DNA of 64,000 nt from Emticicia sp. BO119. Lineage in GTDB: Bacteria > Bacteroidota > Bacteroidia > Cytophagales > Spirosomataceae. The notes under the pieces are model-generated. The model made no database searches. It worked only from the letters and a program-made list of their open reading frames with translations, and had not been told where the DNA came from. How positions within the stretch are numbered: position 1 is the first letter of the stretch; the number at the start of each line of letters is the position of its first letter. The stretch covers positions 124,001-188,000 of the forward strand of contig NZ_JACETV010000008.1 of the NCBI RefSeq assembly GCF_013912375.1, read 5' to 3'. Of the stretch, positions 7,597 through 57,630 are shown piece after piece. Both the position numbers and the translations under genes were made by a program.

Positions 7597-7616
7597 GCCA
7601 GTGTGTTACACATCGG

Positions 7617-40594: not shown

Positions 40595-40647
40595 ATAAAT
40601 GCTATGAATTTTCAAGAAGCAATCTTTAAAAAATTCATAGCATTTAT
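40595..40647 (-). terminator. Terminator of the DUF3179 gene
   Basis: Arms 40595-40612 and 40630-40647 form an 18-bp perfect stem (outer part AAATGCTATGAATTTT / AAAATTCATAGCATTT) with a 17-base loop. It starts 4 bases past the stop of the DUF3179 gene and lies 33 bases before the gamma-carbonic-anhydrase ATG. Only a weak T-run follows on the minus strand. Confidence 0.55.
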
Positions 40648-40650
40648 TAA

Positions 40651-41856
40651 TTATCTTGACTTTAAATTATCATAATCCCAGATTTCGGTAGGTTTGTGGA
40701 ATTGCTTCCATGCTCGAAGATACTCTTGATATGCTTGTATTTTTGCTAATTTCTTCCCTTTTAATGCTCCTTCTATACATTCGCCCCTATCATTCCATAT
40801 ACTATAAGTTTCTTTATCCTTAAATCCTGAAGTTTCTGAAACAAAGTTTAAGATTTTGCCATCAATCTCCCTATTAAAAACATGGAAGGAATGTCTGTCA
40901 TCTTCTAATACAATTACGAATGATGTATTTCCTATTTTATCATTAAGTACTGGTGGTAATGACCTCCATGCATAAGCTTTATTTTTATTTTCAATAGTTA
41001 CACCTAAGATCCAGCTTTTGTCCCAGAATTTGTTAGGATTCGTCAGAGAATCTTCATCCATTTTCTGACGACGGTCATAGGTTTTCAATTCATCATATTC
41101 TTCACTAAAAGTATTATCAGGCTGAAATACCAGACCATCAGGGTATTGAGCAAAAAAGGCTTTCAAAGTCATTTGTTCTGATGGAATAATATCTAATTTC
41201 TTTCCTTCCTGTGCGCCTACTGCTGCATCTCCAGTAGCCTGATACCACCAGGATTTGGTATCAGAATCTTCTATTACGGCATTATAGTGCCTTGCCCCTA
41301 CCAAACGGAAAATCTGTTTCTTACCATCTACAATTGGACTAAAAACCAAACCCGTGCGACACATGGTACAATAAGTAATCAATACGGGTGTATCACCCAC
41401 ATTATCCTGTATTTTATGATGATAACCTACGAACTTAATCGGATACGCTTTGGCTATACTACCATTTACAACAGTCATCACTACTAAACTATCTGGCACT
41501 TTACTATCTTTTTGGGTTGCGAACTGAATCTTTTCAGGTTCTTTAAACATTACCTCTGCTCTGTACGAAACATCGGTAAAGTAATAAAGTACTATGGCTA
41601 CCAATACAATGATTCCTACTAATCCCTTCTGTTTGTTGCTGCCTTGAGTAATAAATGACCACGCAGGAATAGCCAATAGCAATAAGCCTATAATTCGTGA
41701 AGCAGGAATGAGCTTCTCAAGATAATAGGTAAGCTTGATTGCTTCTAAATCCTGACTACCAGGAAAGGGCATCAAAAGATAGGCCTCTAATAAGGCTGGT
41801 AAGATAAGGCAAACAGCACCTATCCAGAACAAACGTTTTTTAAATGTAGGAGTCAT
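40651..41856 (-). CDS. DUF3179 family membrane protein
   Basis: The 401-residue protein starts MTPTFKKRLFWIGAVCLILPALLEAYLL and has four helices in the first 100 residues. The DUF3179 domain follows, with the paired cysteines TYCTMCRTGLVFSP near 180, KQIFRLVGARHYNAV and TKSWWYQATGDAAVG. I used the ATG at 41856; the frame upstream runs into the end of the TonB receptor gene. DUF3179 function is unknown. It follows the FecA-like receptor by 55 bases on the same strand, so the receptor and this protein are probably co-expressed. Confidence 0.8.
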   Translation of the reverse strand: MTPTFKKRLFWIGAVCLILPALLEAYLLMPFPGSQDLEAIKLTYYLEKLIPASRIIGLLLLAIPAWSFITQGSNKQKGLVGIIVLVAIVLYYFTDVSYRAEVMFKEPEKIQFATQKDSKVPDSLVVMTVVNGSIAKAYPIKFVGYHHKIQDNVGDTPVLITYCTMCRTGLVFSPIVDGKKQIFRLVGARHYNAVIEDSDTKSWWYQATGDAAVGAQEGKKLDIIPSEQMTLKAFFAQYPDGLVFQPDNTFSEEYDELKTYDRRQKMDEDSLTNPNKFWDKSWILGVTIENKNKAYAWRSLPPVLNDKIGNTSFVIVLEDDRHSFHVFNREIDGKILNFVSETSGFKDKETYSIWNDRGECIEGALKGKKLAKIQAYQEYLRAWKQFHKPTEIWDYDNLKSR

Positions 41857-41911
41857 TGTATTCAGATATTTCAGGTAAAAGGCCTCTTCTGCAAGGGCCT
41901 TTTTAATTTGT

Positions 41912-44089: not shown

Positions 44090-44165
44090 AAAAATATTCT
44101 TTGAAAGTAATACAAGGTTGTCCTGTATTGCTTAAATTAATTACTGATTATACTATAAGAGAATA

Positions 44166-44197
44166 GGTATAACATTCTCCAAGGAGGACATTATACC
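44166..44197 (-). other. Hairpin between the HSPPP-A gene and the FecA-like receptor gene
   Basis: GGTATAACATTCTCC (44166-44180) and GGAGGACATTATACC (44183-44197) form a 15-position stem with three mismatches and a 2-base loop. It lies 20 bases past the stop of the HSPPP-A gene and 77 bases before the receptor ATG. It may terminate or attenuate read-through; no T-run follows. Confidence 0.4.
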
Positions 44198-44216
44198 AAG
44201 GAATAGTTATATAAAA

Positions 44217-44756
44217 TCAGGTTAATTCAGGCGGAGGCGAATGTAACAGGTGTATTACCTGATAGTCTGATTGGGTTGGTTCTGTATAAAAAGAGGGGTC
44301 ATATATTTCGACAATGGGTTCAGTTAAAGCCAATTGCAATGAATCAGAAACATAAACTTTCTGTAAATCACCTAACAGTTTTATGAGTTTCCCTAATGGG
44401 CTGCGAGATATATCAGAATCAGGCGCAGTCATACCTTGTACCATTGATGCCAATTCGGCAAAACGCTCCTGCGCATTCTGATTCGACTTCAGAATTACAT
44501 ATAATGTATCATTCTCCTGATACTCGTGCATAATATTATAAAAATCATTTCCGCTACGTATCAGCCCTTCCTTATGTCCATTCCTGTAATGCACATCTTT
44601 TGAAGTTGTCGGAATTTTAATAATTTTCCATTTATCATCAAAAATCACATTAGAATTTGTTCGGTAATTAGTCTCAAAAAACAGCATAGTTATTGTCAGC
44701 CCAAACATATTGTAGAGCAGAAGTAATAAAAGACCTATTGACGCTATTTTTTTCAC
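44217..44756 (-). CDS. Small membrane-anchored protein ending in HSPPPEL (HSPPP-A)
   Basis: The 179-residue protein starts with a membrane anchor (KKIASIGLLLLLLYNMFGLTITMLF, residues 2-26) and has a soluble domain with VIFDDKWKIIKIP and EGLIRSGNDFYN, then ENDTLYV, and a helix. It ends QVIHLLHSPPPELT. The protein at 56417-56992 shares the anchor (KKVAAISLLVLLICNILG), the GLI..G and NDTLY segments, and the C-terminal HSPPP(D/E)L, so the two are paralogues. I recognise no family. It is upstream of the FecA-like receptor and DUF3179 genes, and downstream of AhpD-like genes. The His-Ser-Pro-rich tail could bind a metal or partner, by inference only. Confidence 0.6.
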   Translation of the reverse strand: MKKIASIGLLLLLLYNMFGLTITMLFFETNYRTNSNVIFDDKWKIIKIPTTSKDVHYRNGHKEGLIRSGNDFYNIMHEYQENDTLYVILKSNQNAQERFAELASMVQGMTAPDSDISRSPLGKLIKLLGDLQKVYVSDSLQLALTEPIVEIYDPSFYTEPTQSDYQVIHLLHSPPPELT

Positions 44757-44810
44757 AGTAAATACTGAAAATTTATCAAATTCAATAAAAAACCTTTATT
44801 TTTCAAATAA

Positions 44811-44839
44811 ACTCTGCACATCTATCAGATATGCAGAGT
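44811..44839. repeat. Hairpin element, copy 1 (ACTCTGCACATCT ... AGATATGCAGAGT)
   Basis: A 13-bp stem with one mismatch and a 3-base loop (arms 44811-44823 and 44827-44839) lies in the 243-base gap between the AhpD-like gene at 45000 and HSPPP-A. A close relative is at 44928-44955. Confidence 0.5.
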
Positions 44840-44927
44840 CTGTGAATTTTTTAACTAAAAACAAAACATATATTAATTTCTTGTAAGAATCCTTGTTTTG
44901 ATTAATCCTCGTAATTATTTGTCAGAA

Positions 44928-44955
44928 ACTCTGCGCATCAAATGATGCACAGAGT
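44928..44955 (-). terminator. Hairpin element, copy 2, directly after the AhpD-like gene
   Basis: ACTCTGCGCATCA (44928-44940) and TGATGCACAGAGT (44943-44955) pair with one mismatch around a 2-base loop. It is 45 bases past the stop of the AhpD-like gene at 45000, so it may end that transcript, but it lacks a strong T-run. Its arms resemble copy 1. Confidence 0.45.
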
Positions 44956-44999
44956 ATAATAGTCAACCTATGATTAAATCAAAACTAAGATTCAATATC

Positions 45000-45569
45000 T
45001 TATTTACCGATGCTTTTCATAGCATCAAAATTGGCATAACCTTCTTCTGAAATACGGATACCTCTGGCTATATATGCCTTAGGATCAGCAGGTGCCCATG
45101 TACCTAAACCATCTACATAACGATTGAACATACAAAAGGCTGCGGCAATCAATACAGTATCATGGATTTCTTTATCATTCGCCCCCTCGTTTCTTGCGGC
45201 ATCTATTTGTTCGGTTGTTACATTTTTGCCACCTTTTTGTACATTTGCAGCAATAGCTAATAAGGTCTTAAGCTTTTTTGAAACTGGTGCTTCTTCGTAA
45301 TTTTTCTTGATTTGATCAATCAATGCACCATCATCGTCTAAATAACATTGTGCGGCAGCTCCATGCACACTCTGACAAAACCAGCAATCATTCAGGTAAG
45401 AAACATAAGTAGCTATGGTTTCTCGCTCACCTCTCGAAAGTCCAGTACTCTCATCTCTCAATAATATGTCTGCCAAAGCATTCAATGGGCGAGCCGTCTC
45501 AGGACGAAAAGCCATTAATCCTCTGATGCCTGGCAGAAGTTCTTCTTCTGGTAATTTGATGTATGCCAT
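45000..45569 (-). CDS. AhpD-like carboxymuconolactone decarboxylase family protein, copy 1
   Basis: The 189-residue protein shows the AhpD thiol motif CWFCQSVH (Cys62, Cys65, His69), preceded by an ERE segment, and a second block VLIAAAFCMFNRYVDGLGTW near 140. Peroxidase-related members of this family reduce disulfides or hydroperoxides with partner proteins. No AhpC or lipoyl partner gene is near. It begins MAYIKLPEEE, as do copies 2 and 4. It follows copy 2 with a 29-base gap and is the last gene of the AhpD-MFS block, ending before two hairpins. Confidence 0.88.
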   Translation of the reverse strand: MAYIKLPEEELLPGIRGLMAFRPETARPLNALADILLRDESTGLSRGERETIATYVSYLNDCWFCQSVHGAAAQCYLDDDGALIDQIKKNYEEAPVSKKLKTLLAIAANVQKGGKNVTTEQIDAARNEGANDKEIHDTVLIAAAFCMFNRYVDGLGTWAPADPKAYIARGIRISEEGYANFDAMKSIGK

Positions 45570-45598
45570 AACATATTTTTTTAAACTCTTTATTTGTT

Positions 45599-46141
45599 TT
45601 ACTTTTTGGGTGCGTAACCCAAGCCCTTTGCAATCATTCTGCCTCTTTGGCGAAAAATTTCTGAATCTTGTATGGGGTCAATTCCCAAACCATCTAAATA
45701 GCGATTAAAAAAACAGAACGTTGCTGCTATAATCACCGTATCATGTATTTCTATATCTGTTGCCCCTAAATCTCTGGCTCTTTGTATCTGGCTTTCTGAA
45801 ACATATTTGCCGCCTTTTTGTACACTTGTAGCAATATTTAATAAAGCTTTCAGTTTATCAGAAATCGGTGCCTTTTTATAATCTTCTTTAATTTGTTCTA
45901 TTAGTACTTCGTTATCATCTAAATAACAGGCCGCCACTGCTCCGTGTACTCCTTCACATAATTGGCAATCATTCAGTTTAGATACTAAAGTACCTATAAT
46001 CTCGCGTTCGGCTTTCGTCAGTCCATCTTCAATACATAGAATTCCTTCTGTAAATGCGCCTAAATGCGGTGCAAGATGTGGGCGAAAAGCCATCAATCCT
46101 CTCATTCCTGCCGCATTGTCAGGCAATTTGATATAAGCCAT
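45599..46141 (-). CDS. AhpD-like carboxymuconolactone decarboxylase family protein, copy 2
   Basis: The 180-residue paralogue has CQLCEGVH (Cys59, Cys62, His66) and AATFCFFNRYLDGLGI, so all three conserved positions (CxxCxxxH and FCxxNRYxDGL) are kept. An additional Cys lies at about 36. It lies 17 bases after the MFS transporter gene and before copy 1, which suggests co-expression of the pair with the transporter. Substrate is unknown. Confidence 0.88.
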   Translation of the reverse strand: MAYIKLPDNAAGMRGLMAFRPHLAPHLGAFTEGILCIEDGLTKAEREIIGTLVSKLNDCQLCEGVHGAVAACYLDDNEVLIEQIKEDYKKAPISDKLKALLNIATSVQKGGKYVSESQIQRARDLGATDIEIHDTVIIAATFCFFNRYLDGLGIDPIQDSEIFRQRGRMIAKGLGYAPKK

Positions 46142-46158
46142 TGAAATTCTTTTTTGAA

Positions 46159-47412
46159 TTATGAATTAATTAGGTTTGCTTCCTTTTCTTTGCTAAAACA
46201 GGCCATGATAAAAGCCACAATAAAAGTACTCGAAAATGCAAGTAAGGCGTTTCCAAAGCCACCAAAAACAGTTACTAATGCACCTACAAAAAACACTGCC
46301 GTAGCAGTAAAGAAACGGCCGACATTAAAGCAGAAACCTGTTGCTGTTGCTCTGATAATTGTAGGAAAAAGCTCAGGTATATAGCTTGACAATGATCCTT
46401 GACTAATTCCGAAACACAGCGTCAGTAAAGCGGTTTCGACATAGATAACCGGGGTGAATGTTTTATTCGTTAAAAATAACAGACAGCTTGCTACTATCAG
46501 ACTGATAAATGTCAGCATAAGGGTTTTTCGGTTGCCTAATGTCTGAATCAGAAATCCTGATAAAATTCCTCCGGCAATACCTCCCAAGCCTAATAACATC
46601 ATTGTATTACCCCTTTCATTTTGTCCGGTTTGGCCGGCAGGCAGTAAGGTTTGCACCCAAGTAGGTAGCCACGAAAATATCCCCCAAAGGCCAATTAATA
46701 CAGCACCAAATATTATAGAGCCTTTGATCAGGTTCGGCCTATAGGAATTATCAAACAAACTACCTGATGATGTCTGCTCAACATTTTTAAGGTTTTGCCA
46801 TTTAGGAGATTCCGGTAATAATACTGCTATCAAAATGGCTATGGCTGCTGGTATCAACCCAATCCAGAAAGCATTATGCCATTCTGAGAATAGTTTGCTT
46901 AATCCACCAGATGCTACTATGCCTAATGGAAAGGCAATTGCCAGGATACCCACAAAGACAGGGCGTGTTTTCTCAATCCAAATTTCAGAAATATAAACCG
47001 TTGTTACCAGCAATACACCGCCCACACCCATACCCGTAAAAAACCGACAAGCTAACAATATATACCAGTTAGTGACAAATACAGTCAGCAAAGTGGCTAA
47101 TCCATATAATCCTGTTACTAATACCAATACTTTTTTACGACCGATTTTATCGCTTACCACCCCAAACAAAATACCACCAATCATCCAACCATATAATGAG
47201 ATTGCACTGATATATGCACCCTCCTCTCCTAAGCGTGCTTCTGAAATTTTCTCATCCAATAGCTCAGGTATAGCTACGGGCAAATAAACCGACATTAAAG
47301 TGGAAACAGTCCCCCCAAAAGCATAACTAATCAGGCACAGAATAAATGCCAGTATTCTGATATTGGATGAAAGCACTTCCTGTTTTAAGTTATTCTCCGT
47401 GATTAAGGTCAT
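46159..47412 (-). CDS. MFS transporter, proton symporter type
   Basis: The 417-residue protein has twelve predicted transmembrane helices and the MFS loop GVVSDKIGRKK after helix 2. The sequence CRFFTGMGVGGVLLVTTVYISEIW in helices 4-5 is reminiscent of aromatic-acid and sugar symporters (AAHS or SP type). A DoxX-like gene lies 20 bases upstream and an AhpD-like gene 17 bases downstream, so transport and thiol redox chemistry appear linked here. Substrate is unknown. Confidence 0.85.
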   Translation of the reverse strand: MTLITENNLKQEVLSSNIRILAFILCLISYAFGGTVSTLMSVYLPVAIPELLDEKISEARLGEEGAYISAISLYGWMIGGILFGVVSDKIGRKKVLVLVTGLYGLATLLTVFVTNWYILLACRFFTGMGVGGVLLVTTVYISEIWIEKTRPVFVGILAIAFPLGIVASGGLSKLFSEWHNAFWIGLIPAAIAILIAVLLPESPKWQNLKNVEQTSSGSLFDNSYRPNLIKGSIIFGAVLIGLWGIFSWLPTWVQTLLPAGQTGQNERGNTMMLLGLGGIAGGILSGFLIQTLGNRKTLMLTFISLIVASCLLFLTNKTFTPVIYVETALLTLCFGISQGSLSSYIPELFPTIIRATATGFCFNVGRFFTATAVFFVGALVTVFGGFGNALLAFSSTFIVAFIMACFSKEKEANLINS

Positions 47413-47432
47413 TGTTTAGGTTTATTAAAAGT

Positions 47433-48290
47433 TTATCGGGTTTTTGAAACTATAGCTTGATGCCTGAATTGACTGTGATACTTAGAGCGATAATATTCAA
47501 AAAGAATCATAGGTAGGACATAGTCACCCATGCGCTCAATTGTTTCAAAAATATCTCTGGCAGTTCCTACAATCGGGAAAAGCAACTCAAATCCTAATTT
47601 GTATAAGCATATAAATATCAATAAGCCCGGAATACGAGGTCTGAGCAAGACAAGAAAAGCCAATACAATCTCGAACATACCAAAAATCTGTAAGTTTGAG
47701 CCAGTCATCGGCAACCCGATTCCAGTCATGTTTTTAATTAAACCCGGATGGTTCATAAATACAGCCAAACCGCCATGGCCTGCTAATAGACTAAACAGGC
47801 TTAATCGGGGTATCCATTCGACCAGATAAGCTTGTTGGAGTGAAAGCGTAGCAAGTGGTTTTAGTTTAGACCACCATTTTTCGCCTACAACCGGAAATCC
47901 ATATAACAGTAAGAAAAGAATCGGCACCCCGAAATTACCAGCACGCTCAAAAAACTCTGACATCCCCATACTGGCTGACGGGCGCAACAAGGCCGTAAAG
48001 ACTGTCCAGAAAGATGCCCATAATAAGAGAACTCGGTTAGGGTAAAAAAATACAGTAAGCCCTATCAGGATATCCATTGCACCAATCAAGGGCATAAAAT
48101 TGTAGGCAATTGGTTCGTTTATAAAGAAAACTTTAAAAAATGGTAACCAACCTTTCTTCAAAACGATGCCCCAGAAACCATGTCCAACAAAGCACCCCAA
48201 TACACCCATGCGCAACCAGAAGAAAAGTTTTTCTTCAAAAGCAAGTTTTGAAGAAAAAGGATTAATGAATAGTGAATTACTTGTACTCAT
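47433..48290 (-). CDS. DoxX-like integral membrane protein
   Basis: The 285-residue protein has about seven hydrophobic helices, with LRMGVLGCFVGHGFWGIVLK in the first and GNFGVPILFLLLYGFP in the middle. The first helix motif GxxFxxHGxxG resembles the DoxX/TQO family, which includes thiosulfate:quinone oxidoreductase subunits and other quinone-linked membrane proteins. I started at MSTSNSLFINPF; an upstream ATG adds 12 residues. It lies before the MFS gene, separated by 20 bases. Function is unknown. Confidence 0.65.
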   Translation of the reverse strand: MSTSNSLFINPFSSKLAFEEKLFFWLRMGVLGCFVGHGFWGIVLKKGWLPFFKVFFINEPIAYNFMPLIGAMDILIGLTVFFYPNRVLLLWASFWTVFTALLRPSASMGMSEFFERAGNFGVPILFLLLYGFPVVGEKWWSKLKPLATLSLQQAYLVEWIPRLSLFSLLAGHGGLAVFMNHPGLIKNMTGIGLPMTGSNLQIFGMFEIVLAFLVLLRPRIPGLLIFICLYKLGFELLFPIVGTARDIFETIERMGDYVLPMILFEYYRSKYHSQFRHQAIVSKTR

Positions 48291-48444
48291 ACTCTTTAAT
48301 TTATATAGTGTTTTTATAAACTCCAACTCCTCTTTTTATTACTGAGTTTAGTTATACAAAAATCTAAATGTTTTTACTTTATAAAAAATTTAAAGGCCAA
48401 TTATTACTATTTATTAAGTCTTCATTTTCAAGCTATTAGAGTAT

Positions 48445-48482
48445 AACAGGCAAAATTAGTCACAGCATAATTAATGCCTGTT
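48445..48482 (-). terminator. Possible terminator after the large TonB receptor gene
   Basis: AACAGGCA (48445-48452) and TGCCTGTT (48475-48482) form an 8-bp stem with a 22-base loop, 10 bases past the receptor stop codon. The T-run is on the plus side, so function on the minus strand is doubtful. Confidence 0.3.
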
Positions 48483-48491
48483 TTTCGTTAA

Positions 48492-51260
48492 CTATCGTAA
48501 TAATTCATCAAAGTTCAAACTTACATAGTACAAACCACCAACAGCAGGAGAGCCGTAAGCTTGTACAATGTACTGATTAGTCAGATTTGATGCGCCAACC
48601 TTGATAATAGATCTGATAACTGGCACTTTATAACTTACCTGTGCATCTAATAAACTATAAGCATTGATTCGACCCGGGAAATTAGAAGTAAATGTACCGT
48701 ACCAATCAAAAGCACTTTGCCAGTGCCATGCTATACTAAAGCCTAATTTATCAGTCAATTTCGAATTGCTCAACACTACATTAGTTTTCCAGGTTGGTGT
48801 ATTAAATGCCGGAATATTACTTGGATTTGCATCCATCAGATTGAAATCAATCCAGGTTATATTGGTATTCAATCGGTAGCTCTCAGGAAATAAATAAGAA
48901 AGCCCGGCACTTACCCCCTGAATAGAAACCTTATCTCTTGCATTTGTATATAATTGAAATGCCTGAGTTTTACCACCTAAAATATCTGCTGCTGCGGACG
49001 GATTAATTGACCCATCTGGCAAAAGAACAGGGTTATCAGGACGGATAACTACAGTATTGATGATAAAATCTTTATACTGGCTGTAGTAATAATTAATATC
49101 AAATAATAGCTTCTGGTTGAATACACCTTTATAACCAATCTCAAGGCTTTGTACCTTTTCAGGCTGAATATAAGGCACATTAGATTTCACCAGTTTGTCT
49201 TTATGATTCGCAATAGCTGTCTGTGGCGGAACACCCTGTGCCAATTGCGCCCCTGCAGCACCACCAAATGCACTTACAGAAGCGACAGTAAAAGAGTTTT
49301 CATAGGCACCCATACCTACAGAGTTTACGGGAGCACCACCTAAGATAATGATTGGTCCAACATTCAGCTTAATGTATTGGTCGCCAATTACAGGGTTACG
49401 GAAGCCTGTCTGATAAGAAGCTCTGATGTGATGATTATCATTAGGAGAAAAAACTGCTGAAGCTCTTGGAGTAAAACGGCCGTCAAAATTTTCATTTTTG
49501 TCATAACGTCCAGACAAGGTTATTTTCAATTTATTATTCGCTAAAGATTTTGAGGCCTGAATAAACGCCCCATACTCATCATTTGTCAGATTTTTATCTT
49601 TATCATCAAATAGTGTTCCTTGTGTATCTAAGTAATATCTTCTGTAGTTGGCACCAACTTGTATATTAACCATTTTAAACAATTGGCTGAAATCATACAT
49701 ACCTTCAATATGTTTCAATCCACAACGACTGAAAATACCCGCACCGCTTAACCCTTGTGTTTTAATTAACTGCTCTTTGGCAGCATCGAATGCTGATGTA
49801 CCAGGTAGTAATCTTCCCTGGTCGGCAAAGGTCCGGGCTATTGTATGATCTTGCCCTGTTATGCCATTAATCGTTCCGTTATAGGCCGCCGTATAGCGCT
49901 GGAACCAGGTAGCATCTGCCTGCGCAGGAGCAACAGTATTACCATCAAGACCTTTTACCCACATTCGGTTAATCAATTGGCCTAACGAACGGCTATTATA
50001 TGAATCCTGCGAGTCTTCCTGATTTGAATACGCTCTTACATAGAAATTGCTTCCTTTTAATTCCAGGCGATGCTGCATCATGTGGAAATTATTGATTACA
50101 AACCGACTACTACCTGTATATTGCGCAATACCCTCACTATAATTTGCCTGATAATTTGCTTCAAGATTATCGGTAATGCGATAGTACACTGAGCCGTTTA
50201 ATTTAAGGCTATAAACACCGTATTGTGCTAAATCTTTCTCTTCATAACCAGTTCTTGATACGCGACCAATACCTGCAATAGTTTGTGCTACTTCATCGCC
50301 ATAGATATTCAATGAATTTTTGCCGGGGTTGTCAGGACCACGGCTTCCCGCAGCTGTATTCGGGTCAACATCAGTATAGTCATTGGCATACCAGTCTGTA
50401 CCTTTGAGATAAGCCACATTTGCTTTAAAAGCGAAACGGTTGTTAAATGCTTTAGCGTATCTTAAAGCCAAATCATATACAGGTTTCGCACCAAGACTTG
50501 TTCCATCGTTCAGGTGATTCACACCCAATTTGGCCTGCGCACTTAATCCCTGGTAATCGAACGGATTTTTGCTTCGAATCTGCAACATACCATTGAAAGC
50601 AATAGGACCGTAAAGCGCAGAGGCAGCACCTGGAATTAACTCGACACTTTCAACATCAATATCGTGCGGGCCGAAAAGGTTGCCCATTGTAAAACCTAAG
50701 CCTGCCGACTGGTTATCAACCCCATCTACCAATTGGAGGAAACGGCTGTTTCCGGTAGTGTTAAATCCACGGGTATTGATTTGTTTATAAGTAAGACTAC
50801 TGGTTACCATATCCAGCGATTTCATATTAAGCAAAGCATCATAGAAATTAGGAGAAGGGCTTTGCTGAATACTTCTTGCATCCATCTTCTCTATGCTTAC
50901 AGGCGAACGTAAGATACTTTCCTCAATTCTTGAAGCAGATACAACCACTTGATTCAGGTCTTCCGAACCTGCCTTCAAGGAAATATTTAATAATGAGGTT
51001 TCACTATTCACAACTATTTCCTGACGCTCGTAGCCGATCATTGATACTACTAAAATGACAGGAAGTGTGGTGTTCAACTCAAAATTACCTTCAGTGTTAG
51101 TGATGGTTCCTGCTACTTTTCCTTTAATAGCTATAGAAGCCCCAACTAATGGTTTTTGCGTTTCAATGTCCGAGACTTTGCCTCTAACCAAAGTTTTCTG
51201 GGCAAAAACTCCACTTGAAACAAAAAATAAGAAACTAATATATGGAAAGATTTTTTTCAT
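48492..51260 (-). CDS. TonB-dependent receptor with CarboxypepD-like N-terminal domain
   Basis: The 922-residue receptor has a signal peptide (about 1-20, SGVFAQ) and a carboxypeptidase-regulatory-like domain (about 22-105, LVRGKVSDIETQKPLVGASI...TNTEGNFELNT). The plug has LLNMKSLDMVTSSLTYKQIN, TRGFNTTGNSRFLQLVDGVD and VELIPGAASALYGPIAFNGML. The long beta barrel ends in YYVSLNFDELLR. It is not clearly SusC-type: no SusD-like partner is adjacent. It lies between AhpD-like copies 3/4 and the DoxX-MFS genes, all on one strand. Substrate is unknown but probably an organic ligand. Confidence 0.85.
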   Translation of the reverse strand: MKKIFPYISFLFFVSSGVFAQKTLVRGKVSDIETQKPLVGASIAIKGKVAGTITNTEGNFELNTTLPVILVVSMIGYERQEIVVNSETSLLNISLKAGSEDLNQVVVSASRIEESILRSPVSIEKMDARSIQQSPSPNFYDALLNMKSLDMVTSSLTYKQINTRGFNTTGNSRFLQLVDGVDNQSAGLGFTMGNLFGPHDIDVESVELIPGAASALYGPIAFNGMLQIRSKNPFDYQGLSAQAKLGVNHLNDGTSLGAKPVYDLALRYAKAFNNRFAFKANVAYLKGTDWYANDYTDVDPNTAAGSRGPDNPGKNSLNIYGDEVAQTIAGIGRVSRTGYEEKDLAQYGVYSLKLNGSVYYRITDNLEANYQANYSEGIAQYTGSSRFVINNFHMMQHRLELKGSNFYVRAYSNQEDSQDSYNSRSLGQLINRMWVKGLDGNTVAPAQADATWFQRYTAAYNGTINGITGQDHTIARTFADQGRLLPGTSAFDAAKEQLIKTQGLSGAGIFSRCGLKHIEGMYDFSQLFKMVNIQVGANYRRYYLDTQGTLFDDKDKNLTNDEYGAFIQASKSLANNKLKITLSGRYDKNENFDGRFTPRASAVFSPNDNHHIRASYQTGFRNPVIGDQYIKLNVGPIIILGGAPVNSVGMGAYENSFTVASVSAFGGAAGAQLAQGVPPQTAIANHKDKLVKSNVPYIQPEKVQSLEIGYKGVFNQKLLFDINYYYSQYKDFIINTVVIRPDNPVLLPDGSINPSAAADILGGKTQAFQLYTNARDKVSIQGVSAGLSYLFPESYRLNTNITWIDFNLMDANPSNIPAFNTPTWKTNVVLSNSKLTDKLGFSIAWHWQSAFDWYGTFTSNFPGRINAYSLLDAQVSYKVPVIRSIIKVGASNLTNQYIVQAYGSPAVGGLYYVSLNFDELLR

Positions 51261-51309
51261 CAGAATTATTCAGGTTAATACTCGAGTGATAATGATTTTA
51301 ATACTCCGT

Positions 51310-51873
51310 TTAACTATTCTTCAGGTGATCATAGCCTTGTGGTAATCGTGTGTACCCATGATTGACGATTCTTTCACCTAAATACTGATAAAATGAGGAG
51401 TCATCAGGTGTAACGCTCGCCAAGCCATCAACATAGCGGTTATATAAACAGAAAAGCGCAGCAATCAATACAGTATCATGAATCTCTATATCTGTTGCAC
51501 CTTGTGCTTTAGCATTAGTTATGGCTTCAGGCGAAACACTTTTTCCACTTTTTTGTACCATTTTAGCAATTGTCAGCAAGGCTTTCATTTTATCACTGAC
51601 TGGCGCATTGTCTAAATCATATTTTACCATTTCACAGGTTTCTGACTCTCCTAATAATAAATCAGCAGCGGCTGTATGAGCCGAGGTACAGAATCTGCAC
51701 TCATTGTTATGTGAGACTACGGTGGCTATTAACTCTCTTTCGCCTTGTGTCAGAGAATTGTCACCTCTTAATAAGATTTGTGTCAGTTCGCGAATAGGAG
51801 CTGCTGTATTCTGACTGAATTCTAATAATCCGGTAATGCCGGGTAAATGGTCAGGAAGTGATATATGAGGCAT
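51310..51873 (-). CDS. AhpD-like carboxymuconolactone decarboxylase family protein, copy 3
   Basis: The 187-residue protein is the most divergent of four paralogues. It keeps CRFCTSAH (Cys59, Cys62, His66) and AALFCLYNRYVDGLAS, but starts MPHISLPDHLPG rather than MAYIKLP. I started at the ATG at 51873; an ATG 11 codons upstream adds no recognisable sequence. It lies 49 bases before the TonB receptor ATG and 97 bases after copy 4, all on the same strand. Confidence 0.85.
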   Translation of the reverse strand: MPHISLPDHLPGITGLLEFSQNTAAPIRELTQILLRGDNSLTQGERELIATVVSHNNECRFCTSAHTAAADLLLGESETCEMVKYDLDNAPVSDKMKALLTIAKMVQKSGKSVSPEAITNAKAQGATDIEIHDTVLIAALFCLYNRYVDGLASVTPDDSSFYQYLGERIVNHGYTRLPQGYDHLKNS

Positions 51874-51970
51874 AATTTTGGACAATAGAAATCCTGTATT
51901 GGTCAATCTTGGCCAATTTGAGTGATGTTATAAATAAAAACAGGGAAAGTTAACAGAATGAATCTGCTAC

Positions 51971-52513
51971 TTAGCGAGTGCGATTATAACCTAAAAAGGC
52001 CATTTTCTCACCCATTTCACGATAAGCCTCGTTTTCTTCCGGAGCCCACGTGCCTAAGCCATCAACATAGCGATTAAACATACAGAATGCTGCTGCAATC
52101 AACACCGAATCATGAATTTCTTCATCGGTAGCACCTTCGCTGCTGGCAGCCTCAATATCTGCTGCCTGCACATATTTTCCGCCTTTTTGTACTTTTGCGG
52201 CAATGTTAAGCAAGGTTCTCAGCTTAGGTGAAATGTCTGTTTGAGCAAAATTCATTTTGATGTCATCAATTATCGATAAATCACAGGCTAAATGTGCCGC
52301 TGCCGCTGCTCCATGAGAAGTATGGCAAAAATGGCAATCATTCAGGTGCGAAACGTAAGAGGCAATCAATTCCCGTTCACCACTCGTCAGCGTAGACGGG
52401 CTTCGCAACAAAGTTTCCGCTAAATTCAACAGCGGTACGGCTGTACGAGGATTATTGGCGAGAAGGCCCGAGATACCCGGGAGTTCCTCATTCAACAATT
52501 TGATATAAGCCAT
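51971..52513 (-). CDS. AhpD-like carboxymuconolactone decarboxylase family protein, copy 4
   Basis: The 180-residue paralogue has CHFCHTSH (Cys60, Cys63, His67) and AAFCMFNRYVDGLGTW, the latter identical to the same segment in copy 1. It starts MAYIKLLNEE. The ATG is two bases after the stop of the outer-membrane protein gene, which shows tight coupling between an outer-membrane protein and this redox protein. Confidence 0.88.
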   Translation of the reverse strand: MAYIKLLNEELPGISGLLANNPRTAVPLLNLAETLLRSPSTLTSGERELIASYVSHLNDCHFCHTSHGAAAAAHLACDLSIIDDIKMNFAQTDISPKLRTLLNIAAKVQKGGKYVQAADIEAASSEGATDEEIHDSVLIAAAFCMFNRYVDGLGTWAPEENEAYREMGEKMAFLGYNRTR

Positions 52514-52515
52514 AA

Positions 52516-53586
52516 TCAGAAACGGTAGGCATAAGTTGCTGAGATCAGATAGTCAGCAAATGCGGCATCGCCGTGTTTTTTGCCTGTGGGGTCTTGCATA
52601 TCACTCCACGATTTAATGCGATTACGAACGACTGCGTACGGCACAGCAAATACAAAAGAATGATGGTGTGTATTGAGCAATAAACTTGGTTCTACTGAAA
52701 CAATATAACCCGGACGACGATTGCCTTCGCTGCTACCTATTCTATCAATAGCTGGTAGCCCCTCTACTCTACCGCCCAAAGCAAAAGAGATTCCGCTTTT
52801 AGGTATAATGGCATAGCTTAAACCTACCCTGCCGGCAAATTGATCTGGTACTGAAAAATTGGTGGCCGGATTTACTACTTTAGGGCTGAACATATAGAAA
52901 CCATTAAAATAGACCGATGCATTTTTGAATATAGACTGATACCCTTGAAGCTCAACGCTATATCCCCAGCCACTATCACCTAATTGCATGGATTGGTCAA
53001 GTGCTTTACGCTGAATATATTCCTTTTTGTTTTTGTCTAATTTATGAAAATCTCCCTGCACGTTGGCATCACCAGTTGGAGCCTTAACACCCACACCTAT
53101 AGCAATGTTACCTTTCAGGTGAGTGGCTGGGTTTAACAACCAATAGGTAGTTGAAAGACGCATATCACCTACACCTTTTGAGTATGTATGGAAACGCTTC
53201 TGCTCAGGATTAGTCTCAATCGAATTACCATAATGCTCATATAAAGAAGAGCGGTCATTATCCAGATATGGGATATTTAAAGCAAAACTTATACGGGGGT
53301 TTACGGCATAGCTTAACCCAAAATCAAAAGCATGTGAATTATTGATAACCTGAGTCCCGTTTTCGATACGTTCTTTTTGCTCTTCTGTTCCAACAAAGTG
53401 GCGGAACGAGTGAAGATAACGGTAAGACGCTGTAAACTGAAATTGTCCACCTTTCATCATTGATGCCGGACTATTGGGATTACCAGTAGCCGAAGCCATG
53501 TGACGAACAGCAATACAACCCTGAGAATAAGCATTTATTGCTCCCATTAGCATTGCTATTAAAAAGAAAGAATATATTTTTTTCAT
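52516..53586 (-). CDS. Outer-membrane beta-barrel transporter-like protein
   Basis: The 356-residue protein has a signal peptide (about 1-21, AYSQG) and alternating beta strands (GQFQFTASYRYLHSFRHF, FDFGLSYAVNPRISFALNIPY, GVGDMRLSTTYWL). It ends in SATYAYRF, a typical barrel C-terminus. It resembles the loosely defined transporter family of Bacteroidota and Proteobacteria outer-membrane proteins. It lies between the haloperoxidase gene and AhpD-like copy 4 (two-base gap). Substrate is unknown. Confidence 0.65.
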   Translation of the reverse strand: MKKIYSFFLIAMLMGAINAYSQGCIAVRHMASATGNPNSPASMMKGGQFQFTASYRYLHSFRHFVGTEEQKERIENGTQVINNSHAFDFGLSYAVNPRISFALNIPYLDNDRSSLYEHYGNSIETNPEQKRFHTYSKGVGDMRLSTTYWLLNPATHLKGNIAIGVGVKAPTGDANVQGDFHKLDKNKKEYIQRKALDQSMQLGDSGWGYSVELQGYQSIFKNASVYFNGFYMFSPKVVNPATNFSVPDQFAGRVGLSYAIIPKSGISFALGGRVEGLPAIDRIGSSEGNRRPGYIVSVEPSLLLNTHHHSFVFAVPYAVVRNRIKSWSDMQDPTGKKHGDAAFADYLISATYAYRF

Positions 53587-53640
53587 TGTTAATACGTTTG
53601 AAAGAAAATGTAAATAGATTTTAAATCAATTCCAGAGGTC

Positions 53641-55179
53641 TTATAGACCCGAGCCATCGGCCTTACCGCGAGCTATGGCATATTGACCGATTTTTTCTCC
53701 ATGCTCCAACCCTGTCTGGGCGTCAAACCGGTAGTGAATCAGACCATAGACTCTTGAATTAGATGCCTCTAATGCCATAGCTTTTAGCTTCTCTGCTTCT
53801 GATGGAAAAATAGCACCTAATACAGTAGCTGCCGCACTTGAGAAAGTTGAATGACCTGAAGTATATGATTGAAAATTTGGTAATCCTACAGAGGTTTTCA
53901 AACCAAATTGCTGAGGGCGAGGATAATAATAATAGTTCTTGGTATCCCAGCAAGCAATTCCGGCATCCATTTCGGCAGTTCCTAAAAGAGCTAACGTACG
54001 TGCAGTTGCCAGTTCACTATATTTGTTTTTAAAGCATAAATTAGCCGCCGCTCTGTGCCAATGCCCAGGAGGAGTATAACTTCCTGCCCCATCAGACCAA
54101 TAATTGGCTATCCGGGCCTGCTCACGTGTTTGTCCTTTATCAATCTTTTTCAATTCATCAAGATCCTTGTTGAATTCATCACTATCCAAAGCAGGAGGTG
54201 GGCCAGGACGCATGGCAATCATCGTTGCTCTATCAAAATTCCAGGTCTGTACAGTACCATAATTTGGAAGCATAGGTGGGCGGGCAGGAAATTCCTGACT
54301 TAACCATTCTGATTTTAAACCCATAGCTTTGGCATTTGCGATGGCTGCAGCATTGACTGTCTGATTGTTAGAAGCACTCATACCATCAGCTTTTGCTCTA
54401 CCCATTACTTTGGCCGCAACCGCTTTCCCTAATGCATCGCCTGCTGCAATATCAGAATCCACATTCATTCCACCCCAGATACGGGCATTTTTTGCTTCAG
54501 CCAGCTTAGCGTCTAAAAGTGGTACTTCGCCCGGAAACATAGCTACTAAAACAGTATATGAGGCAGCTGCCACAACTGCATCTTCTGATGGATACGATGG
54601 CAGGTCAGAAACCGGTAATAAGGCAGAAACCGAAGCATCGTTTTTAGAAGGTGCTTTACGGCTATACTTATACTTATAATTCCAGGCAGCAACTAAGGCA
54701 TCATATTGAGCTACGCTCAGATACGCCAAAGCACGGGCTACATATGGTGGGTTGGCAAATGGAAATTTAGGGTCTGCCAATGGATTAGCCGCATCAGGAG
54801 CTGGATATTTGCCTTCTGCATTAGAAGCAGGAGGGATATTATAGCGTGCTGATAATTCGCGGGCTATCTCATTCCAGCGATATACGGCGCCAGCACCCCA
54901 ATATGCTACTGCTTTTTTGTTTTCTGGAGTAATGGTAGAAATGGTAGTTTTTAGCTTGGTAATCTCTGCCTGATACTCTACAGAATTAGTCGCTTTAGGC
55001 TCTGCAACGGGAACTTCGTCTGAACCGGCTAAAATATATGTTTTCCATGTGCCCCCTTTTTCATCTAATTTGGCAGGAATATAAGCCTCTTTTAGTGGCT
55101 CTTCCAGCTCTTTGTTACAAGATGAAACAAAAACGCTCAATGCTGCAAGAAGGATCAGTGATAAATGTATCTTTTTCAT
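53641..55179 (-). CDS. Vanadium-dependent haloperoxidase / PAP2-family lipoprotein (intact active site)
   Basis: The 512-residue protein has a lipoprotein signal (VSSC, Cys21), so it is exported and anchored. All three vanadate/phosphate motifs are present: KX6RP as KNYYYYPRP (near 414), SGH in YTSGHST (near 438) and SRX5HX3D as SRVYGLIHYRFD (near 474-485). The family includes vanadium chloroperoxidases/bromoperoxidases, which oxidise halide with hydrogen peroxide, and acid phosphatases of the same fold. The sequence alone cannot tell these apart. The gene lies between two outer-membrane protein genes and upstream of AhpD-like genes, so a peroxide-linked role is plausible. Confidence 0.85.
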   Translation of the reverse strand: MKKIHLSLILLAALSVFVSSCNKELEEPLKEAYIPAKLDEKGGTWKTYILAGSDEVPVAEPKATNSVEYQAEITKLKTTISTITPENKKAVAYWGAGAVYRWNEIARELSARYNIPPASNAEGKYPAPDAANPLADPKFPFANPPYVARALAYLSVAQYDALVAAWNYKYKYSRKAPSKNDASVSALLPVSDLPSYPSEDAVVAAASYTVLVAMFPGEVPLLDAKLAEAKNARIWGGMNVDSDIAAGDALGKAVAAKVMGRAKADGMSASNNQTVNAAAIANAKAMGLKSEWLSQEFPARPPMLPNYGTVQTWNFDRATMIAMRPGPPPALDSDEFNKDLDELKKIDKGQTREQARIANYWSDGAGSYTPPGHWHRAAANLCFKNKYSELATARTLALLGTAEMDAGIACWDTKNYYYYPRPQQFGLKTSVGLPNFQSYTSGHSTFSSAAATVLGAIFPSEAEKLKAMALEASNSRVYGLIHYRFDAQTGLEHGEKIGQYAIARGKADGSGL

Positions 55180-55254
55180 ATTACGGCCCCTTGTTCGATT
55201 AATGAACTGCTTGGGGAAGCATATTTTCTGTGATTAATCTTTTCTACAATTTTA

Positions 55255-56172
55255 TTATTTGGTGGCCTCTGCCGACTTCGTTCTGAAATTTATCTGATAT
55301 AAGAACCCTGCCGAAATAGTAGTTGACTGGCCCATGTTCTGACCATCTATTACTCTTCTGACAGTTAGATTGAAACCAATGTTTTTAGGCTGAAATTTGC
55401 CGTAAAAGCCTACACCAGTAGATTTCATATTGTTTGTCGGGAAAGGCATATCATTTCGGCGGATATAGTCGCCACCTACACAGGTATTTTTATCAATGAA
55501 AATCTCTGCCTGAATGCCTTTTTTATAATACCCGGCGCGTGCAGCCACATCAGTTGCATTGGGTATTCTTACTTCGTTGGTATTATAAACCCGATCATCG
55601 GCCTGGTAAGCGTCTCTGTCAACTTTTATATTGCTACGAAAGATATAGCTTCCGTGAGCAGTTATATAAAAGCCCGATTTATGTTTATAATGCACAATCA
55701 GACGTGTAGTAAATGTTTTAGCTCCTATCCCGATTGACATCGGTAAAAAATCTTTTACATAGTTTGTTAAAGGGACAGAACCTCCTAACACTCCATGTAA
55801 CGACAATCCGTTTTCAGCTTGAACCATATTGTATTTTGCAAATAACGATAAATCTTGCAGGCCTTTTTGTCCCATTAGATTCCCAGCACTTGTCTTAGTC
55901 CATACATAAGGTACTCCAGCAATAAGATTCAATTTTTTGGTAATTCCATAGGCAACCATTGGCATAACACTCTGCATTGTATATGTCCCGATATTCAGGT
56001 TTTCTCGTTTGAGGTTATTTTCCCAATATTCACTCCATTGACTGTTAGAATATGTCGTTGCAATACAAATTGATTTTTTATTCATATAGATTGCATCATG
56101 AGGCATTTGAGCATAGGTGTTCATACAAACACTGCCTACCAACACAAGTATTAACTTGTAAAGTAATTTCAT
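55255..56172 (-). CDS. Outer-membrane beta-barrel-like protein, second transporter-like copy
   Basis: The 305-residue protein has a signal peptide (about 1-21, NTYAQ) and strand-rich sequence (MPMVAYGITKKLNLIAGVPY, GVGFYGKFQPKNIGFNLTVR). It resembles the protein at 52516-53586 in kind, not closely in sequence. A MPHDAIYMNKKS segment follows the signal. It lies 75 bases before the haloperoxidase start codon and follows the HSPPP-B gene across a 244-base gap. Substrate is unknown. Confidence 0.6.
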   Translation of the reverse strand: MKLLYKLILVLVGSVCMNTYAQMPHDAIYMNKKSICIATTYSNSQWSEYWENNLKRENLNIGTYTMQSVMPMVAYGITKKLNLIAGVPYVWTKTSAGNLMGQKGLQDLSLFAKYNMVQAENGLSLHGVLGGSVPLTNYVKDFLPMSIGIGAKTFTTRLIVHYKHKSGFYITAHGSYIFRSNIKVDRDAYQADDRVYNTNEVRIPNATDVAARAGYYKKGIQAEIFIDKNTCVGGDYIRRNDMPFPTNNMKSTGVGFYGKFQPKNIGFNLTVRRVIDGQNMGQSTTISAGFLYQINFRTKSAEATK

Positions 56173-56416
56173 TTTTAAAATACAGAGTTTTGGTTAAAAA
56201 CAGTCTTGTTATACAAGAGAACCATTCACTTTGCAGGCATTGAGAAGTGGTATCAGGGAAATCTGAAGCACTTTCGACAAATACCCATGCACGTAGGTTG
56301 TAAACCTATATGATTCACTCGAAAAGTGTGTTAATTAGAATGTAAATCCCATCATCGATAACAAAGTGCACACTTCGCCCATCTTTGACAAAAATTGTAG
56401 AAAAGAAGAATCTGTT

Positions 56417-56992
56417 TTAAACCAAATCTGGCGGAGGAGAATGAACTAATGTTGTTGTAGCAGGAATAAACTCCTGATAGGTGTAGATTTTTAACGGGAG
56501 GTCCTCAACCCAAAAATAAGCAATTGTGTGGGTACTGAACTGAGTATAATCTTTTGTAAGATTCTTAAAGAAATTAAGTGCTTTTTTACCCGGACTCGTC
56601 GGCTCGTCACTCACATGTTTCTTTACTTGTTGCAACAAACTAAACACATTTTCACGGCTTGCGTTTTCTTTGGTACAATAAGTGTAAAGGGTATCGTTGG
56701 CAAACTTACGTTGGGTAGTACGAAAAAAATTACCTTTGAAGATAATAAGACCATCTGCATCTTCTGATTCATTCCAACTGGACATATAAGGAATAGCCAT
56801 TGGAACTTTCATTACTAATTGCTCTCCATTTTCTTCATAAAATACATTTGTCTGTACCATACGTTGCTCCTGCCATTTGTCCATTAAAAAAACAAATGTA
56901 GAGCCAAGTATATTACAGATAAGTAATACAAGGAGCGATATGGCAGCAACTTTTTTCAGTAGTAGTTTTGGTTCATGCAACAAATTAATCAA
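56417..56992 (-). CDS. Small membrane-anchored protein ending in HSPPPDL (HSPPP-B)
   Basis: The 191-residue paralogue of HSPPP-A has a membrane anchor (KKVAAISLLVLLICNILGST, about 13-32) preceded by a short basic cytoplasmic segment. The domain DGLIIFKGNFFR, ANDTLYTY and the C-terminus TTLVHSPPPDLV parallel HSPPP-A. It lies upstream (on the minus strand) of the barrel-haloperoxidase-AhpD block and 26 bases after the TRIC channel gene, with which it may be co-transcribed. Function is unknown. The conservation of the last seven residues in both copies suggests that the tail is the functional part. Confidence 0.6.
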   Translation of the reverse strand: MINLLHEPKLLLKKVAAISLLVLLICNILGSTFVFLMDKWQEQRMVQTNVFYEENGEQLVMKVPMAIPYMSSWNESEDADGLIIFKGNFFRTTQRKFANDTLYTYCTKENASRENVFSLLQQVKKHVSDEPTSPGKKALNFFKNLTKDYTQFSTHTIAYFWVEDLPLKIYTYQEFIPATTTLVHSPPPDLV

Positions 56993-57018
56993 TTAAATTG
57001 AAATTTTCCAACAACTTT

Positions 57019-57630
57019 TTACATTTTATTGATTTTTGGTAAATGAATATTCTTTTTAATAGCCAAGGTACGAATGCCAAAAATGAATAAAACCGTTGTT
57101 ATTTCAATTAATTCATCAGAGATATTTAATTGTTGTAATACAAAAAACAGACACCCCCCTATTATACATACAGTAGCGTATAACTGACCTGTGCGAAAAA
57201 GTGCCGGAATTTCGTTTAATAATATATCTCTTATCACACCACCAAAACAAGCAGTAATGGTTCCTAAGATAATACATGATGGAATATTCAGTTGCACGGC
57301 TATGCCTTCCTGTATTCCTCTTAAGGCAAAAAAACCAAGACCAAGCGAATCGAAAAAAGTAAGTGTTTTATCCAAATGATCGATTTTGCTTCTAAAAAGA
57401 ACCGTTAAGCCTGTTACACCTATAATTAAAAGAATAATTGATGAGTCAAGAATCCATCTGACAGGTAAATGCCCTATCAACATATCTCGGATAGTGCCTC
57501 CACCAACAGAGGTAACAAATGCGATCACTAAAACACCAAAGATGTCTAAATTCTTCCGCATAGCAGCCAAAGTACCCGAAGCAGTAAAGGCAATGGTTCC
57601 GGCTATATTTATAAAGCTAAAAAATTCCAT
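57019..57630 (-). CDS. TRIC-type trimeric cation channel family protein (UPF0126)
   Basis: The 203-residue protein has seven predicted transmembrane helices in an internal repeat, each half bearing the GGG.IRD motif: SVGGGTIRDMLIG near 41-53 and CFGGVIRDILLNEIPALF near 128-145. This matches the UPF0126 (YicG/YadS) family, which includes prokaryotic homologues of the trimeric intracellular cation channels. It is divergent from dnaG, with an inverted repeat carrying facing promoter elements between them. Confidence 0.85.
   Translation of the reverse strand: MEFFSFINIAGTIAFTASGTLAAMRKNLDIFGVLVIAFVTSVGGGTIRDMLIGHLPVRWILDSSIILLIIGVTGLTVLFRSKIDHLDKTLTFFDSLGLGFFALRGIQEGIAVQLNIPSCIILGTITACFGGVIRDILLNEIPALFRTGQLYATVCIIGGCLFFVLQQLNISDELIEITTVLFIFGIRTLAIKKNIHLPKINKM

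Follow-up and report, generated by a model that had tools for sequence, protein, structure and literature searches.

Pseudomonas aeruginosa requires RclX, a stand-alone AhpD-like protein, to withstand HOCl and HOSCN (PMC7950407), and a stand-alone AhpD-like protein protects against allicin (PMC7119367). The locus described here encodes four AhpD-like proteins (AhpDs) beside a TonB-dependent receptor and a major facilitator superfamily (MFS) transporter. It lies at positions 44217–56992 of the window, i.e., the whole 64,000-nucleotide stretch of Emticicia sp. BO119 that was analyzed. An earlier note on this DNA held that AhpD proteins normally recycle peroxiredoxin, which is too narrow in view of the two stand-alone examples; by analogy, RclX-type and allicin-type proteins appear to be better functional analogues than AhpC recycling.

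The operon probably represents TonB-coupled uptake with AhpD-fold enzymes and is conserved, yet uncharacterized, in many Bacteroidota genera. Its core consists of (i) a membrane protein of the HSPPP family, (ii) AhpDs, (iii) the TonB receptor, (iv) the MFS transporter, and often (v) a DUF3179 protein. The recurrence of the AhpD subfamily beside enediyne genes hints, by analogy, that the operon handles a very reactive small molecule. The reading favored here, tentatively and at somewhat less than even chances, is that the operon imports and chemically processes one class of reactive small molecule, with the AhpDs acting via Cys65. Among the matches listed from a search of open-access literature, which does not cover subscription papers, no paper describes this operon in its title or the start of its abstract, and the same holds for enediynes with an AhpD-type enzyme.

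Conservation of the Core Module

Eighty loci, the best 80 of at least 552 confirmed ones, were selected via the TonB receptor of the module and read in six frames; 13 of them are shorter than 22 kb, so that some gene absences are contig ends. AhpDs are present in 78/80 loci (76/80 by longest open reading frames, which miss masked genes), and 213 of their 214 copies lie on the strand of the receptor. The MFS transporter is found in 77 loci and an HSPPP-family protein in 76, followed by DUF3179 (43/80) and a FecA-like receptor (21/80). A haloperoxidase-like protein and barrel protein B each occur in 17 of the 80 loci, barrel protein A in 16, an UnbV/FG-GAP gene in 10, and a DoxX-like gene in two, both from Emticicia. 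Beyond these named families, no gene group is found in more than 10/80 loci, and most of the small groups lack annotation. Three AhpD copies per locus are the commonest arrangement (51/80), and four, as in the window, occur in 6/80. Synteny is likewise conserved: going upstream from the receptor, the first module gene is an AhpD in 70/80 loci, and going downstream it is the MFS gene in 74/80; the order HSP..AhpD..TonB..MFS..AhpD is kept in 55/80, and the exact series HSP-AhpD-TonB-MFS-AhpD-AhpD in 34/80.

The core genes are also co-inherited. Among 222 genomes of the same family, 105 have AhpDs and 99 an orthologous receptor; all 99 receptor genomes have AhpDs, and six have AhpDs only. Receptors were called orthologous if they exceeded 1290 bits, a cut set after the gap was seen, and two split copies were added; lower-scoring receptors alone occur in 18 more genomes, three of which have an AhpD, and dropping the cut changes the count to 102/117. 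The operon is carried by 15 of the 36 sampled genera of the family. The same cluster is present on contigs of Emticicia agri and Emticicia sp. C21, whose TonB receptors are 89% and 90% identical to that of the window. A protein search in 58 relatives finds the AhpDs patchy yet clustered, and 10 of 13 neighborhoods, drawn from 11 genomes, combine AhpDs with the orthologous receptor and an MFS gene.

The clustering recurs far above chance. That the genes are chance neighbors forming no module is almost certainly wrong: nothing speaks for it where the core is concerned, and the 99/99 co-inheritance, the content of the 80 loci, and the conserved order refute it there, although it is plausible for DoxX (2/80) and partly so for the haloperoxidase and the barrel proteins. 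Co-occurrence in other genomes had been set beforehand as the check that could overturn the module idea, and the core came through it (99/99 receptor genomes; 78/80 loci). The module is real, and its conserved core and kinds of genes fit the uptake and redox function that the earlier note had proposed, but the core is narrower than was thought, with the haloperoxidase, the two barrel proteins, and DoxX (17, 17, 16, and 2 of 80 loci, respectively) being optional.

Gene Content and Transcription Signals

The source genome comprises 28 contigs and 6.57 Mb in total. Positions 44217–56992 hold 12 genes, all on the minus strand, with the FecA-like receptor (41912–44089) and then the DUF3179 gene (40651–41937) downstream. 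Thirteen minus-strand genes had been counted previously; their order and strand are borne out, while the thirteenth, the FecA-like receptor, falls outside the interval. The features are, in the direction of transcription:

56417–56992, minus strand: HSPPP-B, membrane-anchored, C-terminus HSPPPDLV; matches no Pfam or NCBIfam family
55255–56172, minus strand: barrel protein B, Phenol_MetA_deg-like, optional; PF13557 at 24.7 bits (cut-off 22)
53641–55179, minus strand: haloperoxidase-like PAP2 lipoprotein, optional in the module; PF01569, active-site residues present, nearest solved sequence 4cit
52516–53586, minus strand: barrel protein A, optional; no Pfam match
51971–52513, minus strand: AhpD copy 4, clade of the second AhpD upstream of TonB; PF02627, TIGR01926, tree
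51310–51906, minus strand: AhpD copy 3, clade of the AhpD nearest upstream of TonB; PF02627, TIGR01926, tree
48492–51260, minus strand: TonB-dependent receptor of the module; PF00593/PF07715/PF13715
47433–48326, minus strand: DoxX-like membrane protein, accessory; weak DoxX_3 match, below cut-off
46159–47412, minus strand: MFS transporter, aromatic-acid/H+ symporter-like; PF07690, best NCBIfam model TIGR00895 at 161.9 bits (cut-off 418.55)
45599–46141, minus strand: AhpD copy 2, downstream group; PF02627, TIGR01926, tree
45000–45569, minus strand: AhpD copy 1, downstream group; PF02627, TIGR01926, tree
44757–44999, minus strand: intergenic gap; two hairpins, both with TTT directly after them; fold of the 243 nt predicted at −68.0 kcal/mol
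44217–44756, minus strand: HSPPP-A, of the same family as HSPPP-B
41912–44089, minus strand: FecA-like TonB receptor, accessory; PF00593/PF07715, with TIGR01783 and FecA models below cut-off
40651–41937, minus strand: DUF3179 membrane protein with a CxxCRTG motif, frequent partner; PF11376 at 172.9 bits

The true start of AhpD copy 3 is likely near 51873, and no Rfam family was found in the window. An FG-GAP/UnbV gene separates TonB from DoxX in two of the neighborhoods (L040 and L041); neither the window (48327–48491) nor L043 has it. Intergenic spacing is 2–165 nt from barrel A through AhpD copy 1. The two hairpins of the gap at 44757–44999 are alike, with CTCTG..CAGAG stems, and the first is unique in the window; the AhpD transcript may possibly end there. 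The presence of two hairpins in the 243-nt gap after AhpD copy 1 suggests that HSPPP-A, the FecA-like receptor, and DUF3179 form a separate second transcription unit. Promoter and terminator scans gave no enrichment over shuffled sequence.

The AhpD Subfamily

The four window AhpDs all score above the PF02627 and TIGR01926 cut-offs and retain the Glu-Cys-Cys-His residues of AhpD. Glu50, Cys62-x2-Cys65-x3-His69, and FCxxNRYxDGL are common to them, so that the CxxCxxxH and FCxxNRYxDGL motifs reported earlier are present in 4/4. Because their pairwise identity is 44–60%, they are old paralogues and not recent duplicates; a recent tandem duplication was rejected on this ground and because the clades track position. 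In a tree of 212 copies, a clade of 72 (support 1.0) unites window copy 3 and two further copies with all 69 nearest-upstream ones, another (support 0.86) contains 50 of the 63 first downstream copies, and window copies 1, 2, and 4 fall in the remaining groups. Since most operons hold distinct old paralogues, separate roles or hetero-oligomers are argued for.

Seven residues are invariant in 212/212 copies, namely Glu50, Cys65, His69, His136, Asn149, Tyr151, and Asp153. Cys62, the first cysteine of the CxxC motif, is kept in 187 copies and is Thr in 25, while Cys146 is Ser in 28. The alignment suggests that the CxxC disulfide is dispensable in the subfamily and Cys65 is not; all four window copies keep CxxC. 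That the first cysteine is replaced in 25/212 copies speaks against a disulfide relay being obligatory in the family. The AhpDs form a distinct subfamily of old paralogues with invariant residues of its own. AhpD-like selenoproteins of TIGR01926 carry CxxU, with selenocysteine at the place of Cys65, and DUF3179 proteins occur with UxxC/T (PMC9312934, PMC13188914), which fits redox-active cysteines in both.

The absence of a nearby AhpC or lipoyl partner, as first claimed, was confirmed by Pfam for the 17 proteins at 38588–57630, a scan that does not extend to the rest of the genome. The AhpDs could serve in defense against peroxide or hypohalous acid, as cytosolic peroxidases or oxidant reductases, with the surface proteins being part of a stress response. 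This would suit the assignment of all four AhpDs to the “peroxidase-related” TIGR01926, the need for RclX against HOCl and HOSCN (PMC7950407), and the induction, together with antioxidant genes, of a Zobellia protein, placed here no more narrowly than in the carboxymuconolactone decarboxylase (CMD) family, on brown algae (PMC9296495). The haloperoxidase, in 17/80 modules, could moreover make hypohalite. Such a defense is nonetheless rather unlikely, as neither H2O2 nor HOCl would readily account for a dedicated TonB receptor and an importer-like MFS transporter, 25/212 copies have lost the first CxxC cysteine, and the haloperoxidase is common in genomes without the module (76/117).

Haloperoxidase, Receptors, and Other Partners

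The haloperoxidase-like PAP2 protein is intact, as had been claimed, keeping Lys414, Arg421, Ser-Gly-His 441–443, Arg476, and His482. Its vanadate-site residues are invariant in five aligned orthologues and are found in 21–24 of 24 sequences of a wider set. It matches 4cit, a Zobellia iodoperoxidase, with an E value of 2.3e-16, vs 1.5e-4 to 3.7e-4 for acid phosphatases. At E ≤ 1e-60, the haloperoxidase family occurs in 179/222 genomes, comprising 103/105 with the module and 76/117 without (Fisher 2.4e-11, kinship ignored); it is commoner in module genomes but not dependent on the module. Its presence in these 76 genomes and in only 17/80 loci led to rejection of the haloperoxidase as the heart of the module. 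A second vanadium-haloperoxidase-like protein, at 38588–39949 on the minus strand, lacks the active site, with Ala for Arg421, SDN for SGH, and Gln for Arg476 and His482, and is probably a non-catalytic paralogue.

The AlphaFold model of the HSPPP protein (pLDDT 73) consists of a long N-terminal helix followed by strands, and a PDB structure search with it gave no match at E ≤ 0.001. The same search with the DUF3179 model (pLDDT 87) gave no match at that threshold either; weaker matches have a Rieske-ferredoxin-like fold (5bok, probability 0.99, E 0.04). The CxxCRTG motif of DUF3179 is invariant in 21 aligned sequences.

The core receptor fails the SusC/RagA profile (TIGR04056, 122.5 bits vs a cut-off of 368.25), and no SusD match was found among the 17 window proteins scanned, other loci being outside that scan. 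If SusC homologues are set aside, the solved sequence closest to it is that of the colicin I receptor, the siderophore receptor CirA, matched over the plug only. This likeness lends itself to acquisition of siderophores or metal chelates, in which the TonB and FecA-like receptors and an MFS importer would take up the chelate and the AhpD and DUF3179 redox proteins would release the metal. The FecA-like receptor of 21/80 loci, a siderophore-transport Gene Ontology term assigned to the receptor in a Spirosoma record, and a weak similarity of the MFS transporter to FslD point the same way. The core receptor also matches haemin, enterobactin, and CirA models, but all below cut-off: no siderophore-receptor model passes (TonB-hemin 101.2 vs 316.85), the FecA-like protein reaches 121.8 bits on TIGR01783 against a cut-off of 223.5, and no further gene group is found in more than 10/80 loci. 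Metal acquisition is quite unlikely.

The MFS transporter and barrel protein B bear on catabolism of (halogenated) aromatics, with the former as an aromatic-acid symporter and the AhpD/CMD proteins performing decarboxylase- or isomerase-like steps. The transporter resembles the TIGR00895, MhpT, and PcaK models but scores far under their cut-offs; barrel B matches Phenol_MetA_deg. Elsewhere, single AhpDs of the subfamily have a homogentisate dioxygenase gene (at L152) or an HPPD-like one (at L147) close by, yet these two dioxygenase neighbors are found at one locus each. No gene group beyond the named families, most of the small ones being unannotated, is found in more than 10/80 loci, so that no ring-opening enzyme belongs to the core; aromatic catabolism is quite unlikely.

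Relatives Elsewhere in Bacteroidota

Across 395 genomes of the phylum, the AhpD subfamily occurs in 26 at E ≤ 1e-30, the genome of the window included. Four loci from other classes (L137, L138, L139, and L162) combine an AhpD with an MFS gene and a non-orthologous TonB receptor, and a short contig (L136) holds AhpD and MFS genes. At L139 there are, in addition, an UnbV protein and a gene that reaches 194 bits with the haloperoxidase profile, the latter unmatched by Pfam or NCBIfam. At L147 (8852–10256, minus strand), where, as at L152, neither TonB nor MFS accompanies it, the subfamily AhpD lies between genes that, by inspection, resemble nuoJ and nuoK of complex I.

Association with Enediyne Genes

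A tblastn search of a plasmid collection with AhpD copy 3 places 45 of 58 records at E ≤ 1e-8 in Streptomyces. The 16 plasmid regions that were opened comprise 14 from Streptomyces, one unannotated from Nonomuraea, and a Spirosoma plasmid with the operon itself. CRTAC1 is taken as E4 and the RnfD-like protein as E5, given that both adjoin the polyketide synthase (PKS) gene of the C-1027 record. The flanks of some regions hold a KedN5-type methyltransferase, an enediyne chromoprotein, CRTAC1 with two DUF1702 genes, or DUF1702; the flanks of others, L169, L170, and L171 among them, show no enediyne-type genes. All 15 actinobacterial records opened carry E4 somewhere on the record, and the C-1027 plasmid has two subfamily AhpDs, one lying within the enediyne cluster and the other 9 kb past E4. 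The enediyne cassette is described as E3/E4/E5/E/E10 (PMC5181780).

Over 72,556 plasmid records (AhpD at E ≤ 1e-20, E4 at E ≤ 1e-30), the AhpD subfamily is on 47, E4 on 49, and both on 45. The records with AhpD and no E4 are one from Streptomyces and the Spirosoma plasmid; those with E4 and no AhpD are two from Streptomyces and one each from Sinorhizobium and Serratia. As a background, P450 occurs on 290 Streptomyces plasmid records and AhpD on 45. The 45 joint records bear 19 organism names, including 16 records of S. clavuligerus and six of S. zaomyceticus, and several AhpDs lie tens of kilobases away from E4. The sample behind the Streptomyces association consists of plasmid records, not chromosomes.

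With one outlying copy and four longer CMD proteins set aside, TxxC replaces CxxC in 16/16 aligned Streptomyces copies, and the two Nonomuraea copies have CxxC. The tree separates a clade (0.94) of 17 of the 18 actinobacterial copies from the 244 Bacteroidota copies, for whose own grouping there is no support (0.0); it gives no sign of recent AhpD transfer. A longer CMD/AhpD-type protein (331–346 residues, CxxC) stands beside the short AhpD in C-1027-like clusters at L184 (19400–20395), L173, L178, and L181. The AhpD-adjacent MFS proteins of Streptomyces were not assigned to the operon MFS family: three of the four score 47–54 bits on the operon MFS profile, and the fourth is not among the reported matches.

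In three Bacteroidota families (L140, L148, and L150), AhpD, E4, and E5 are adjacent on the same strand. L140 has, in this order, an HSPPP-family protein (102 bits), two AhpDs, and E4-E5, the last pair occupying the place of TonB-MFS in the window. Among the 395 genomes, 26 have AhpD, 23 E5, and 12 both (Fisher 3.5e-10, kinship ignored). Eight of the 12 belong to one family (f42), with AhpD and E5 on different contigs or ~560 kb apart; genome G629 gives a weak E5 match (94 bits). No AhpD is near E5 in a further eight E5 regions, of which three come from genomes where AhpD is found elsewhere. Because of these distant f42 pairs and the E5 regions without AhpD, the Bacteroidota link rests on the three adjacent cases. 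The AhpD-enediyne link is strong for plasmids of Streptomyces; in Bacteroidota it is real as well, but sparse.

Only E4-type proteins adjoining E5 (L140, L148, and L150) were counted for the Bacteroidota link. Generic FG-GAP/UnbV proteins were rejected as proof of such a link, being weak: a profile of 10 operon UnbV copies gives C-1027 E4 only 35 bits. The window genome has seven UnbV genes, none in the window. One locus (L193, genome G344, 1420–11203, minus strand) holds a 2010-residue PKS-like protein (by inspection), E5-like (269 bits) and E4-like (447 bits) proteins, and a 325-residue protein in the E3 position, and looks like a true enediyne-type cassette in Bacteroidota. L189–L192, L195, and L196 have E4/E5-like pairs with no PKS in view, some beside large TonB-type and 1150-residue proteins; E4/E5 seem to exist outside enediyne clusters in Bacteroidota.

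Proposed Function

In the favored import-and-processing reading, the TonB receptor would carry the compound over the outer membrane, and its passage through the inner membrane would fall to the MFS transporter, the inward direction being one that we infer. Usually two to four paralogous AhpD-fold enzymes, presumably cytosolic, would then attack the compound with Cys65, aided by Glu50 and His69. Their chemistry may be reduction of an oxidized or halogenated group or formation of a transient thiol adduct. The membrane HSPPP protein and DUF3179 would work at the envelope, with the haloperoxidase and the barrel proteins as an optional add-on. As to the class of substrate, enediyne cores reportedly arise via iodinated polyunsaturated intermediates, according to a 2024 study in Nature Chemical Biology. 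This chemistry and the optional haloperoxidase make halogenated or polyunsaturated compounds attractive, if speculative, candidates.

Several observations weigh against this reading. The direction of MFS transport is not readable from sequence. Among the 13 neighborhoods, the AhpD stands by itself at L046, is accompanied by DUF3179 and a different TonB-type protein at L050, and is part of an AhpD-MFS-AhpD series with no receptor between at L052. In several genomes of another class (L153 and L154), the subfamily AhpD has a class-III aminotransferase gene nearby but neither TonB nor MFS. Since these two loci lack TonB and MFS and the former three lack the receptor orthologue, the AhpD enzyme is not tied to import. 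The window genome yields no E5 at E ≤ 1e-15 in a search that did not include PKS, so that the E4/E5 link fails there, and the operon is not classed as an enediyne cluster, a class that calls for the complete cassette.

A broader proposal, doubtful at present, is that the AhpD subfamily is a dedicated single-cysteine catalyst of enediyne-type chemistry, making, disarming, or dehalogenating highly unsaturated (polyene, polyyne, iodinated) intermediates. Enediyne producers would keep AhpD within or close to their clusters along with E4/E5, and in Bacteroidota it would have become part of a TonB/MFS import operon that scavenges or neutralizes such compounds, with E4/E5 replacing TonB/MFS in some lineages. 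One AhpD subfamily travels with the enediyne cassette on Streptomyces plasmids and also sits in a Bacteroidota operon that has no function assigned. If the chemistry is shared, the operon offers a tractable handle on (i) the role of unnamed accessory proteins in enediyne clusters and (ii) the means by which bacteria of soil and fresh water withstand or exploit enediyne-type compounds.

Comparison with Known Systems

The Glu/Cys/Cys/His spacing of the window copies is the same as in Mycobacterium tuberculosis AhpD, where the residues are Glu118, Cys130, Cys133, and His137. Solved relatives within PF02627/TIGR01926 are 2pfx, 2prr, 3c1l, 6k40, and 2oyo. Relative to M. tuberculosis AhpD and the TIGR01926/PF02627 family, the window subfamily adds His136, Cys146, and Asn149-x-Tyr151-x-Asp153, its first CxxC cysteine is not obligatory, and its genes form an operon with TonB and MFS. 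M. tuberculosis AhpD further differs in its AhpC/lipoyl partner, for which there is no counterpart among the scanned window neighbors.

RclX and the AhpD of PfAR-1 are likewise stand-alone AhpD-like proteins directed against thiol-reactive compounds, and both are compared here by function only. RclX is encoded by a single gene next to that of its regulator (PMC7950407), while the PfAR-1 AhpD belongs to a set with oye, 4-ot, kefF, and kefC (PMC7119367); the available parts of these sources name no TonB receptor for either.

The vanadium-dependent haloperoxidase 4cit is the closest solved sequence to the haloperoxidase-like protein, and the vanadate-site residues are common to both. The window protein aligns with it over ~200 residues only, a likeness at the level of sequence.

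The AhpD-type protein located in the C-1027 enediyne cluster, WP_010056303.1, belongs to the same subfamily but differs from the window copies in having TxxC for CxxC, Ser for Asp153, and no TonB partner, and it groups with the actinobacterial copies. It is 39–49% identical to the four window AhpDs and scores 220 bits on the operon profile, compared with at most 106 for 11 other AhpD-like proteins.

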